Source of the DNA: Acinetobacter sp.
GTDB taxonomy: Bacteria; Pseudomonadota; Gammaproteobacteria; Pseudomonadales; Moraxellaceae
Assembly: GCA_008017315.1 (NCBI GenBank)
Contig: SSHE01000006.1
Location: 1-49,264, forward strand
Direction: 5' to 3'
DNA: 49,264 nt
Shown here: positions 19,004 through 24,737 of the stretch, one piece after another
Position numbering within the stretch: position 1 is the stretch's first letter
Layout of the letters: each line of letters begins with the position of its first letter
Notes under the pieces: generated by a model
What the model was told of the DNA's origin: nothing
Database searches by the model: none
What the model saw: the letters and a program-made list of their open reading frames with translations, nothing else
Made by a program: the position numbers and the translations under genes

Positions 19004-20647
19004 TTAGTTTTTGCGTAATTTTTTACGATGCGTTCTGGTCGCTGGCCATTGCATCATAAACCTCGCCCCTCCCAATGTCGGGCTCGCATCCACCACAGCA
19101 TGACCACCGAACCAATACGCGATACGGCTCACAATCGACAATCCCAAACCATAACCACCTGAAGCACGAGTTCGACTATCATCTAATCGAGTAAATGCGT
19201 CAAACACTTTTTCCCGATCTTTTTCGGCAATACCTACCCCATCATCTTCTACACAAACAAACGCTATCCCATTTTCCACGCCACCACTGATATGTACACG
19301 CTGCTGACCATAACGTAGTGCATTGCCCACAAAATTTTGAATCACTCGGTGCAAATAACGATATTCAGCTTCAACGATGATACTTTCATCAGGTAACGTA
19401 CTACTAATGATTTTATCTTTTTTAATCACATCACTTTCTTTCAAAATTTGAGTAAAGACATCTTTTAAAACCATCTGCTCAAAATTTAAATTTGGTGTAC
19501 CCTGCTCCAACGTGGCATAGGTTAGGATTTCATCAATCAGACTATTTAAGGATTCAATATCCTTGTCAATCATCTCTTGTTGTTGCAGACGGCTTTCATA
19601 ATCATCGGTATCCGTCAGCATTTCCATACCAAAACGTATGCGTGCCACAGGCGTACGCAGTTCATGCGATACCGCACGAGTCAATTCACGCTGGGCTTCA
19701 ATCAAACGTTGAATATGCTCGGTCATCATATTAAAACTCAGACCAAGAGTCGCCATCTCATCACTACCTATCACTTCAACACGGGTATTCAATTCCCCCT
19801 TACGCACCTGATTGAGTGCTAGACGCACCTTACCAATCTTGCGTTGCAGTGGACGCATGAGAAAATACACACCCAAGCTCAATATCAATAGGCTAAATAG
19901 TGTAATCCCTGCAAAAATACGAAATGGAAACCAGTTGAATACTGGCACAGGCCCGAGTAGCAAAACTTTGTTTGGCACATTGGTATAGGCGGAAATGGCG
20001 GAAATCGTTGTTCCTTGCGCTGTACCACTATCTTCATACAACAAAATCGTCTGAGCTTTATCCAAACGTAATCGACTGAGCTGATCCATATCCAACTGTA
20101 AATCAGACAAACTACGAAAGGCCAATTTATAAGGAAAATAAGGCTGTAATTGTTCTAAACGATTTTCTTCACTACCCGAATAATAGACCAAATCCTCCAA
20201 AATCAAGATTGGAATCATCTTGATTTGCACTTCGGACAATTTATCCACTCGAATATGCAGATAGACATTCGACATGCCCTCTATACGAGCATAAATATCC
20301 CCTATAGCGGTTTTATCATCATAACGCACAATGGCATGATGGTTTTCCAAACGACGGTGTTCACTGCGAGAGAGCTCTAATGTATTCGTAGCCACCAAAT
20401 CCAATGGCAATTCCAACACACGAGATACATCCTTCATCCAATCGACTTGACTTGAAGGCGTCGGCTGCTTGGCAATCACCTGTGCAATCACATAGGCAAC
20501 CCCATCCGCCATAGATTCCCGATAATCTTGTGCACGATGGTCATTCACCACTTGCACAATCACGTACGACAATAGGGCGACCAATGCCACCAAACACACC
20601 AATCCTGCATATATTCTGACAAAAATGCTATGTTTGAATAATGACAC
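19004..20647 (-). CDS. bfmS: Sensor histidine kinase BfmS
   Basis: This 547-aa membrane kinase partners BfmR. Helix 1 spans about residues 8-32, a periplasmic sensor region of about 200 residues follows, then helix 2 (about 240-262), a HAMP linker, the HisKA box with the phospho-acceptor His in SHELRTPVARIRF, and an HATPase domain (NALRYG N-box, DDGVGI, GYGLGLSI). In Acinetobacter baumannii BfmRS controls biofilm pili, capsule, envelope stress and virulence, and BfmS largely restrains BfmR. It starts 39 bases after bfmR, so the two are co-transcribed. Length agrees with A. baumannii BfmS (549 aa). Confidence 0.93.
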   Translation of the reverse strand: MSLFKHSIFVRIYAGLVCLVALVALLSYVIVQVVNDHRAQDYRESMADGVAYVIAQVIAKQPTPSSQVDWMKDVSRVLELPLDLVATNTLELSRSEHRRLENHHAIVRYDDKTAIGDIYARIEGMSNVYLHIRVDKLSEVQIKMIPILILEDLVYYSGSEENRLEQLQPYFPYKLAFRSLSDLQLDMDQLSRLRLDKAQTILLYEDSGTAQGTTISAISAYTNVPNKVLLLGPVPVFNWFPFRIFAGITLFSLLILSLGVYFLMRPLQRKIGKVRLALNQVRKGELNTRVEVIGSDEMATLGLSFNMMTEHIQRLIEAQRELTRAVSHELRTPVARIRFGMEMLTDTDDYESRLQQQEMIDKDIESLNSLIDEILTYATLEQGTPNLNFEQMVLKDVFTQILKESDVIKKDKIISSTLPDESIIVEAEYRYLHRVIQNFVGNALRYGQQRVHISGGVENGIAFVCVEDDGVGIAEKDREKVFDAFTRLDDSRTRASGGYGLGLSIVSRIAYWFGGHAVVDASPTLGGARFMMQWPATRTHRKKLRKN

Positions 20648-20686: not shown

Positions 20687-21394
20687 TTATGATTCTTTCA
20701 CAAACAAATAACCCTTGCTACGTACGGTTTTAATGCGTTTTGGATTTTCTGGGTCATCACCAATCTTCGGACGGATACGAGAAATCCGCACATCAATCGA
20801 GCGATCTTGACCATCATATTCAATACCACGCAGACGCTCAAAAATATCTTCACGTGACAAGATACGCCCTGCATTGGATGCCAACAACCACAACAGATCA
20901 TATTCGGCACTGGTAAAGTCCACCAACTCGCCAGCCAATGTCACCGAACGACCACCATTATCAATCACTAAGTCATCAAATTCGATACGCTGTAGAACTT
21001 CTTCATCAGCGACTTTATCGGTACGGCGTAATAAAGCACGGATACGTGCCAACAAAACTCTTGGCTGTACAGGTTTGGCCACATAATCATCCGCTCCCAT
21101 CTCCAAACCCAGCACCTGATCCATATCCTCAGTACGTGCTGTCAGCATCAAAATTGGATGATGATATTGTGAACGCACTTCACGACAAACCGTCAAACCA
21201 TCTGCACCAGGCAACATCACATCCAGCACGACCAAATCAGGCTGTTCGCTAATAATGCGACGAATAGCACGATGACCATCCGTTTCCACACCAACTTCCA
21301 GCCCATTGCGAATAAGATATTCTTGCGTCAAAGATGCAAGACGTTCATCATCTTCAACAATCAGAATCTTTGGTAATTTTTCTTCTTGAGTCAT
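20687..21394 (-). CDS. bfmR: Response regulator BfmR (OmpR/PhoB family)
   Basis: This 235-aa regulator has a receiver domain with the acidic pocket EDDE (14-17), the phospho-acceptor Asp58 in VVLDVMLPG, the TARTEDMDQ switch and the MGADDYVAKP loop. An OmpR-type winged helix ends in RTVRSKGYLFVKE-like sequence (here KTVRSKGYLFVKES). From memory it is nearly identical to A. baumannii BfmR, the master biofilm/capsule regulator. GAGG lies 8 bases before the ATG. Upstream are a promoter-like pair with a palindromic spacer and a cluster of TTACA half-sites that could serve autoregulation. Confidence 0.95.
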   Translation of the reverse strand: MTQEEKLPKILIVEDDERLASLTQEYLIRNGLEVGVETDGHRAIRRIISEQPDLVVLDVMLPGADGLTVCREVRSQYHHPILMLTARTEDMDQVLGLEMGADDYVAKPVQPRVLLARIRALLRRTDKVADEEVLQRIEFDDLVIDNGGRSVTLAGELVDFTSAEYDLLWLLASNAGRILSREDIFERLRGIEYDGQDRSIDVRISRIRPKIGDDPENPKRIKTVRSKGYLFVKES

Positions 21395-21465
21395 AGTCCT
21401 AGCCTCATGTTTAAATTGCTTTATCTAATTAAAAATTAAATAAATACACTGGTTTTGATGCCTCC

Positions 21466-21493
21466 AATATACACGCGTTTACATTGTAAACAA
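21466..21493 (-). promoter_or_regulatory. Candidate bfmR promoter with a palindromic spacer
   Basis: On the minus strand TTGTTT (21493-21488), 16 bases, then TATATT (21471-21466), about 70 bases before the bfmR ATG. The spacer and -35 are covered by GTTTACATTGTAAAC (21477-21491), a perfect palindrome with 7-base arms. It shares the TTTACA/TGTAAA core with the half-sites further upstream, so it may be a repression site. Confidence 0.45.
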
Positions 21494-21547
21494 GCCCCCT
21501 TTCACCAAAAAAATACACGGTTCCCTGTTTTGTATCCATTATACCAG

Positions 21548-21614
21548 TTACAAAGTAATGTTATGTAATCAACCCCACATGGAATTACATGGGAGTTACA
21601 TTTTTCTGTGTAAT
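21548..21614. promoter_or_regulatory. Cluster of TTACA/TGTAA half-sites (candidate BfmR sites)
   Basis: Within 67 bases there are five copies in both directions: GTTACAAA, ATGTAATC, the direct repeat TTACAT-GGGAG-TTACAT (21585-21601), and TGTAAT (21609-21614). The direct repeat has an 11-base period, the spacing at which OmpR/PhoB-family dimers bind head to tail. It lies 150-220 bases upstream of bfmR. Assignment to BfmR is inference. Confidence 0.4.
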
Positions 21615-21651: not shown

Positions 21652-21672
21652 TTATCCACAAAGTTATCTATA
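21652..21672 (+). promoter_or_regulatory. DnaA box pair upstream of nrdA
   Basis: TTATCCACA (21652-21660) is a perfect DnaA box. TTATCTATA (21664-21672), 12 bases on in the same orientation, is a 7/9 match. E. coli nrdAB is controlled by DnaA through two boxes upstream of its promoter, so the same role is plausible here. Nothing else resembles a replication origin. Confidence 0.5.
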
Positions 21673-21825: not shown

Positions 21826-21873
21826 ATCCCTTATCTTGTGCTTCAATCCAAAATCAAACACAATTTATAGTAT
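21826..21873 (+). promoter_or_regulatory. Two NrdR boxes in front of nrdA
   Basis: ACACAATTTATAGTAT (21858-21873) matches the 16-base NrdR box ACACWATATATWGTGT at 14 positions. A second, weaker box (21826-21841, good right half TATCTTGTG) lies with its centre 32 bases upstream. Tandem NrdR boxes about three helical turns apart are typical in front of ribonucleotide reductase genes. A promoter-like TTGATT-16-TTATCT pair (21809-21836) overlaps the upstream box. Confidence 0.6.
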
Positions 21874-21929: not shown

Positions 21930-24737
21930 ATGAACGTCCTCAACACAACCCCTGGTGCAATACGTGTCATCAAACGCACAGGCGATGTTGCCGAATTTAA
22001 TGCAGAAAAAATTTCTGTTGCCATCGGCAAAGCATTCCTCGCTGTTGAAGGTGGGCAAAGTCATGATTCCAGCCGTATTCATGATCGCATCGCCGAATTG
22101 ACTGAAATGGTACTCAATACCTTTACACGACGTTTGCCTTCAGGTGGTACCATCCATATCGAAGAAATTCAAGATCAAGTTGAGCTGGCACTGATGCGTA
22201 CAGGTGAGCAAAAAGTCGCCCGTGCTTATGTGATTTATCGGGAAAAACGGGCAGCCGAACGTGAAGCCAACAACGAACATCACCACCCAACATTACAAAT
22301 TACCGATACACAGGGTAAACTCAAGCCACTAGATTTAACGGCATTACGCCAAAAAATCAGCAATGCCAGTAAAAATCTGGATAATATTGATATTGAAGCC
22401 ATTTTAGATGAAACCGTCAAAAACCTTTATAATGGCGTAAAAGAATCTGATATTGCCACCACCATGATGATGGCAACGCGTACACGCATCGAACATGAAC
22501 CCAACTATAGCTACGTCACCGCACGCCTATTGTGTGATGAACTGGTGGCAGACGGTCTCAACTTCCTCGGTTTGGCAAGTGATACTTTGGAAAATACCGC
22601 ATTGGCAACTTTTTTACACAAAGGCGTTGAATGCGATTTATTAGACCCAGAGTTGTTAAAATTTGATTTGGTGAAACTTGCTGCTGCCATTCAACCTGAA
22701 CGCTCCAATCAATTCACTTATTTAGGCTTACAGACATTATTTGACCGCTATTTCATTCATAAAGATGGGGTACGCTTTGAATTACCACAATTATTCTTTA
22801 TGCGTGTTGCCATGGGGCTGGCGGTGCAGGAAGAACATCGTGAAGAGCGTGCGATTGAGTTTTATAACTTATTATCCAGTTTTGATTATATGGCTTCTAC
22901 GCCAACCTTGTTCAACGCAGGTACGTTACGCCCACAACTTTCAAGCTGCTATTTAACCACTGTACCTGATGATTTATTTGGCATTTATGGGGCAATCCGT
23001 GACAATGCCATGTTATCGAAATGGGCTGGCGGTTTAGGCAATGACTGGACTCCTGTACGTGCCTTAAATTCCTATATCAAAGGTACAAACGGCAAATCGC
23101 AAGGCGTTGTCCCTTTCCTTAAAGTGGTGAATGATACGGCTGTGGCAGTCAATCAAGGCGGTAAGCGTAAAGGTGCAGTCTGTGCCTACTTGGAAACTTG
23201 GCATTTAGATGTCGAGGAATTTTTAGAATTACGTAAAAATACAGGCGATGACCGTCGCCGTACCCATGACATGAATACCGCCAACTGGGTGCCTGATTTA
23301 TTTATGCAACGGGTACTAGAAAATGCCGACTGGACATTATTTAGTCCATCAGATGCTCCAGATTTGCATGATTTAACGGGCTTAGCTTTTGCTGAGCGTT
23401 ATACCCATTACGAAGCACTCGCAGCCAAAAAAGAAATCTTGCATAAAACGGTAAAAGCACAAGACTTGTGGCGTAAAATGCTTTCTATGCTGTTTGAAAC
23501 AGGTCATCCATGGATTACCTTTAAAGATGTGTGTAATTTACGTTCACCACAACAACATGTCGGCGTGGTGCATTCTTCCAATTTATGTACCGAAATTACT
23601 TTAAATACCAGTGCCGATGAAATTGCGGTCTGTAACTTAGGTTCAATCAACCTGGTACAACATATTCGCAATGGCAAACTAGATGATAAAAAGCTACAAC
23701 GTACCATTAAAACAGCGGTACGTATGCTCGATAACGTCATTGATATCAACTATTATGCCGTACCACAAGCACGCAATTCCAACCTAAGACACCGCCCTGT
23801 CGGTATGGGAATTATGGGCTTCCAAGATGCGTTATATGAATTGAATATCGCTTATGGCTCACAACAAGCCGTTGATTTTGCCGACAACTCCATGGAAATC
23901 ATTAGCTATTATGCCATTCAGACTTCAAGTGACTTAGCGGTGGAACGTGGTAGCTATGATACCTTCAAAGGTTCACTCTGGGATCAGGGAATTTTACCTA
24001 TTGATTCACTGGAAAATGTCGCCAAAACTCGTCCTCAAGGCATGTTTGACGTTGATCGTTCGACCACACTGGATTGGGACAGCTTACGTGCCAAAGTGCA
24101 ACAAGATGGGATGCGTAATTCCAATGTGATGGCGATTGCACCAACAGCTACTATTTCTAATATTTGTGGTGTATCACAATCTATTGAGCCAACTTTCCAA
24201 AATTTATATGTAAAATCAAATCTTTCTGGTGAATTTACCGTGATTAACCCATACCTTGTACGTGCCTTAAAAGCACGTGGTTTATGGGATGTGGTGATGG
24301 TCAATGATCTCAAACACTACGAAGGTTCGGTACAAAAAATTGCTCGTATTCCAGACGAATTAAAAGCGATTTTTGCCACAGCCTTTGAAGTTGAACCTCG
24401 TTGGATTGTGGATGCAGCCAGCCGCCGTCAAAAATGGATCGATCAAGCCCAATCCCTCAATCTGTATATTGCAGGGGCAAACGGCAAAAAACTGGATATT
24501 ACCTATAAAATGGCGTGGTTACGTGGACTCAAAACCACCTACTATCTGCGTGCTTTGGGTGCAACTTCGGCGGAAAAATCTACCATTAATACAGGTGCAT
24601 TAAATGCAGTAAAACCTGTTGCAGTCGCAGCCGCTGAAATACAAACCGAAATGGCAAAAGATGATGGTTTCCAAAATGCTGCCCCTGTCCCACAGGCATG
24701 TAGCATCGACAATCCCGATTGTGAAGCGTGTCAATAA
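21930..24737 (+). CDS. nrdA: Class Ia ribonucleoside-diphosphate reductase, large subunit
   Basis: This 935-aa catalytic subunit reduces NDPs to dNDPs. Two ATP-cone domains are visible at the N-terminus: about 8-100 (IRVIKRTGDVAEFNAEKI) and about 125-215 (TLQITDTQGKLKPLDLTAL). They account for the extra length over E. coli NrdA (761 aa) and resemble the duplicated cones of Pseudomonas NrdA. The barrel has SSCYLTTVPDD, NLCTEITLNTS (radical-site Asn, Cys, Glu), CNLGSINL and TTYYLRAL. The C-terminal CSIDNPDCEACQ gives the shuttle cysteines. I choose the ATG at 21930, with GGAG about 11 bases upstream, over an upstream TTG at 21888. nrdB follows after 32 bases. Confidence 0.96.
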   Translation: MNVLNTTPGAIRVIKRTGDVAEFNAEKISVAIGKAFLAVEGGQSHDSSRIHDRIAELTEMVLNTFTRRLPSGGTIHIEEIQDQVELALMRTGEQKVARAYVIYREKRAAEREANNEHHHPTLQITDTQGKLKPLDLTALRQKISNASKNLDNIDIEAILDETVKNLYNGVKESDIATTMMMATRTRIEHEPNYSYVTARLLCDELVADGLNFLGLASDTLENTALATFLHKGVECDLLDPELLKFDLVKLAAAIQPERSNQFTYLGLQTLFDRYFIHKDGVRFELPQLFFMRVAMGLAVQEEHREERAIEFYNLLSSFDYMASTPTLFNAGTLRPQLSSCYLTTVPDDLFGIYGAIRDNAMLSKWAGGLGNDWTPVRALNSYIKGTNGKSQGVVPFLKVVNDTAVAVNQGGKRKGAVCAYLETWHLDVEEFLELRKNTGDDRRRTHDMNTANWVPDLFMQRVLENADWTLFSPSDAPDLHDLTGLAFAERYTHYEALAAKKEILHKTVKAQDLWRKMLSMLFETGHPWITFKDVCNLRSPQQHVGVVHSSNLCTEITLNTSADEIAVCNLGSINLVQHIRNGKLDDKKLQRTIKTAVRMLDNVIDINYYAVPQARNSNLRHRPVGMGIMGFQDALYELNIAYGSQQAVDFADNSMEIISYYAIQTSSDLAVERGSYDTFKGSLWDQGILPIDSLENVAKTRPQGMFDVDRSTTLDWDSLRAKVQQDGMRNSNVMAIAPTATISNICGVSQSIEPTFQNLYVKSNLSGEFTVINPYLVRALKARGLWDVVMVNDLKHYEGSVQKIARIPDELKAIFATAFEVEPRWIVDAASRRQKWIDQAQSLNLYIAGANGKKLDITYKMAWLRGLKTTYYLRALGATSAEKSTINTGALNAVKPVAVAAAEIQTEMAKDDGFQNAAPVPQACSIDNPDCEACQ

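Follow-up and report, generated by a model that had tools for sequence, protein, structure and literature searches.

The window analyzed here, a 49,264-nucleotide stretch of DNA, is part of a 2.05-Mb Acinetobacter assembly, which was 91% complete. A response regulator of the OmpR/PhoB family with an RstA-like DNA-binding domain, BfmR, was encoded on the minus strand (20687–21394; structures of A. baumannii BfmR and of RstA were matched by the open reading frame), and the bfmS gene (19004–20647) was located on the same strand and in the same direction. BfmRS is a central regulator of envelope stress, capsule, and biofilm in Acinetobacter. The nrdA gene, followed by nrdB, is divergent from bfmR and bfmS and starts near position 21930 on the plus strand. 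The spacer between bfmR and nrdA was 535 bp in length and contained the motifs at issue. Upstream regions of bfmR were gathered from Acinetobacter (82 in total), and 56 dereplicated spacers were aligned.

The best-conserved stretch of the spacer was the block CAATATACACGCGTTTACATTGTAAACAA on the minus strand (21466–21494), a putative core promoter/operator block, with a conservation of 0.956 versus 0.50 for the spacer overall among the 56 aligned sequences; 26 of its 29 columns had at least 95% identity. The palindrome claimed by the first-pass annotation for the bfmR promoter spacer was confirmed within this block: GTTTACATTGTAAAC (GTTTACA-T-TGTAAAC, 21478–21492), with a mean identity of 0.994. 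Across the genus, it reads GTTTACA-W-TGTAAAC, the central base being T or A, and is 99% conserved in the 56 dereplicated spacers. The left arm of the palindrome also supplies one half-site of a second element, absent from the first-pass annotation: the plus-strand tandem TACA-N6-TACA (21470–21483), which has the geometry of the RstA box (PMC4117788) and was present in all 82 spacers with varying inner bases. Free variation within the core was confined to the middle position of the palindrome and to two or three inner bases of the tandem. The exact palindrome core was not found by pattern search in one of the 79 genomes (G031). The species with no nrdA found next to bfmR (L018, L133, L142, and the divergent L158) also retained the palindrome and TACA. 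Thus, the core block belongs to bfmR, and its interpretation as an nrdA signal was rejected.

The core block overlaps a probable −10 element of bfmR, the hexamer TATATT (21467–21472, minus strand), which was read from the sequence and was conserved in all aligned rows except that of L158; TTGTTT was located 16 bp upstream of it. A consensus promoter scan did not list TATATT at this position. Transcription of bfmR is predicted to begin near 21460. The TACA tandem falls partly on the −10 element, and its invariance could be due in some measure to this overlap. Promoters of SigAb, an ECF sigma factor of Acinetobacter, have GTCAAC at −35 and CGTT at −10, 16–18 bp apart (PMC12153292); since neither GTCAAC nor its complement was present in the conserved block, a SigAb promoter was rejected. 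Upstream of the bfmR promoter, one more genus-conserved block was found, TTCACCAAA...ATACA (21501–21517, 13 of 17 columns with at least 95% identity), the full sequence of which was TTCACCAAANNNATACA. TTTGT at 21529–21533 was likewise conserved in the genus.

TTACA or its inverted form TGTAA started at seven positions within 21466–21614 (21479, 21485, 21548, 21564, 21585, 21596, and 21609) and at one further position outside it (21631). The claim of several copies, including inverted ones, held: when the spacer was shuffled 5000 times with dinucleotides preserved, the richest 149-bp stretch never contained as many as seven half-sites (mean maximum of 1.7). TTACA-N6-TTACA on either strand was found in 0.5% of the shuffled spacers. 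Generic arrangements are weaker evidence, as a 7-1-7 palindrome of any sequence occurred in 9.6% of the shuffles and a 6-mer repeat of any sequence with a period of 11 in 22%.

The direct repeat TTACAT-N5-TTACAT was indeed present with its 11-base period as TTACATGGGAGTTACAT on the plus strand (21585–21601). The first-pass annotation had merged it with the palindrome into one group sharing a core; the comparison across the genus instead separates a genus-conserved core from a clade-specific repeat, a putative accessory site whose identity averages 0.30 when all Acinetobacter are compared. Among the nearest relatives (L009 and L210–L214), the half-sites of the repeat were retained at 11-bp spacing, and the five inner bases were freely changed. 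The clade-specific half-sites GTTACAWWGTAA...TTANGTAA (21547–21568) were kept in the window and in the same relatives. A second group (L123, L146, L148, and L149) had a comparable tandem, but at another position. Retained half-sites, free inner bases, and a shifted position elsewhere are what genuine accessory sites that move in the course of evolution look like. The exact repeat recurred perfectly once more in the 2.05-Mb assembly; with at most one mismatch, 9 copies were found in the whole assembly versus 23 for the reversed control pattern, so TTACAT-N5-TTACAT is no common genomic motif. The other perfect copy (L002, 1500–1518) was located some 20–40 bp upstream of an open reading frame, which is followed by a GGDEF-type (diguanylate cyclase-like) one.

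The nrdA side of the spacer carried genus-conserved signals of its own. Two NrdR-box-like 16-mers, 32 bp apart (21826–21841 and 21858–21873), were located just upstream of nrdA. Two tandem DnaA boxes, TTATCCACA and TTATCTATA, were found 3 bp apart upstream of nrdA (21652–21672); in E. coli, nrdA is known to be controlled by DnaA (PMC12176259).

Regarding sites beyond the bfmR promoter, the first-pass annotation had proposed to look for the motif upstream of csu. The seven csu upstream regions yielded one tandem match and no conservation. A csu-type gene (spore coat U, PF05229) was not found in the assembly of the window; genes of PF05229 were absent from 54 of the 79 genomes of the genus. The 15-mer palindrome was seen at bfmR and nowhere else among the matches read. 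Other copies of TTTACAWTGTAAA were sporadic or coding-looking, except for a clade-limited one upstream of a lipoprotein-like gene, and the palindrome was rejected as a genus-wide regulon motif. The lack of a conserved tandem at csu and the restriction of the 15-mer to bfmR favor a local autoregulatory operator over a regulon-wide motif. No TACA tandem with N6 or N7 was present upstream of bfmR orthologues of other genera. An apparent enrichment of TTAC spacing in these genera was discarded, as it came mostly from one Psychrobacter group. Two Psychrobacter (L021 and L022) had TTACAATGTAAACAA or CTACAATGTAAACAA upstream of bfmR, possibly a remnant of the Acinetobacter palindrome. A literature text search for the palindrome sequence returned unrelated papers only.

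The DNA-binding domain of BfmR aligned with that of Klebsiella RstA, in the DNA-bound crystal structure of which Arg199, Val203, and Arg207 touch bases (PMC4117788). Located in BfmR through their i, i+4, i+8 spacing, all three residues were identical (DRSIDVRISR in BfmR versus DRSVDVAISR in RstA). The box consensus of E. coli and Klebsiella RstA is TACATNTNGTTACA (PMC4117788), and its pair of tandem TACA half-sites recurs in the bfmR promoter with an identical six-base separation (21470–21483). The bases between the half-sites depart from this consensus: TACACGCGTTTACA agrees with it at both TACA and at the T preceding the second TACA but is mismatched at the T after the first TACA, the inner T, and the G. 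In further contrast to the RstA box, the bfmR tandem covers the probable −10 region of its own regulator and has one half-site in common with a palindrome.

Binding of BfmR to the A. baumannii bfmRS promoter was reportedly described by Draughn et al. in 2018. That case, as cited in two later sources (PMC6363711, PMC9814549), involves the same regulator and the same promoter region; genomes of the A. baumannii type differ from the window in having no TTACAT repeat. According to a review, BfmR binds its own promoter, and the unphosphorylated form is the tighter binder (PMC6363711). Higher bfmS in a bfmR deletion was read as repression (PMC9814549), while an earlier proposal, as cited in the same paper, was activation instead. 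That paper also cites the HnoC operator of Shewanella oneidensis, an inverted repeat over a promoter that the unphosphorylated regulator binds more tightly, as is reported for BfmR (PMC9814549); this likeness concerns behavior alone, not sequence or family.

We interpret 21466–21494, with moderate confidence and on the basis of sequence comparison, as the bfmR core promoter fused with a BfmR operator, probably repressive, and complemented by clade-specific accessory sites. BfmR, as an RstA-type regulator, would bind TACA half-sites, namely the tandem at 21470–21483 and the inverted half-site that ends the palindrome at 21492. These sites would extend over the −10 element and the bases directly upstream of it, and BfmR occupancy would block RNA polymerase and thereby limit bfmRS expression; coverage of the probable −10 element by the predicted site fits repression. 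TTACAT-N5-TTACAT and the neighboring half-sites (21547–21601) may be accessory sites of the same kind, in the clade of the window only. As for the OmpR-family autoregulation that the first-pass annotation had proposed for bfmR, the bfmR-linked conserved tandem, the RstA residues, and the reported promoter binding speak for it, but the TTACAT repeat named first there is clade-specific and not the core site. The annotation had assumed both positive and negative autoregulation; both are claimed in the literature, and the position of the core element favors repression without deciding the matter.

Because the palindrome is symmetric, another regulator is conceivable. Sites of the OmpR family are not usually laid out as perfect palindromes, and perfect 7-1-7 symmetry with a free center is typical of symmetric dimers. 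The palindrome might then be the operator of a different, symmetric regulator controlling bfmRS from outside, the TACA tandem being partly the −10 element and resembling the RstA box by coincidence; the single such site per genome and the lack of the tandem in other genera agree with this explanation. We consider it rather unlikely, as no candidate regulator emerged, the tandem of all 82 spacers varies in its inner bases like a two-half-site operator, and BfmR carries the TACA-reading residues and is reported, in the review cited above, to bind this promoter region. Conservation of the block purely as a promoter (−10, −35, and spacer), without operator function, appears improbable: TATATT inside the block, TTGTTT 16 bp upstream, and the densest conservation there are in line with it, but −10/−35 spacers normally vary, whereas no bases are more constant than those of the palindrome arms, and L158 retains the palindrome and TACA despite its changed −10 hexamer.

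The distal repeat could instead serve nrdA, with a response regulator activating a clade-specific plus-strand nrdA promoter from it. The half-sites of the repeat are on the plus strand, a promoter-like plus-strand TTGCCA-17-TATATT (10/12) lies 16 bp downstream, and L009 has TTGACG-17-TATATC at the corresponding place. However, such promoter-like matches were no commoner than in shuffles (3 versus 2.6), and the nrdA signals shared across the genus (DnaA-box and NrdR-box-like sites) are situated further downstream, the repeat being no part of them; this role is unlikely in our view. For the core, one might also imagine that unphosphorylated BfmR represses as a symmetric dimer on the palindrome and that phosphorylated, head-to-tail BfmR takes the tandem sites. 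Since TTTACA is common to the tandem (21470–21483) and the inverted pair (21478–21492), only one pair could be filled at once, and such a switch, if real, would explain the reported tighter promoter binding by unphosphorylated BfmR. We give it little credence.

Autoregulation of bfmRS and the binding of BfmR to its own promoter are already known; to this, a genus-invariant site is a useful addition unless the exact site was already mapped in earlier BfmR promoter work. The residue match with RstA provides a rational half-site for seeking direct BfmR targets. The overlapping tandem and inverted half-sites suggest a specific hypothesis on why BfmR behaves so unusually with respect to phosphorylation. 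The literature is divided between activation and repression of the bfmRS operon by BfmR, and a pinpointed, near-invariant element makes this question directly testable.
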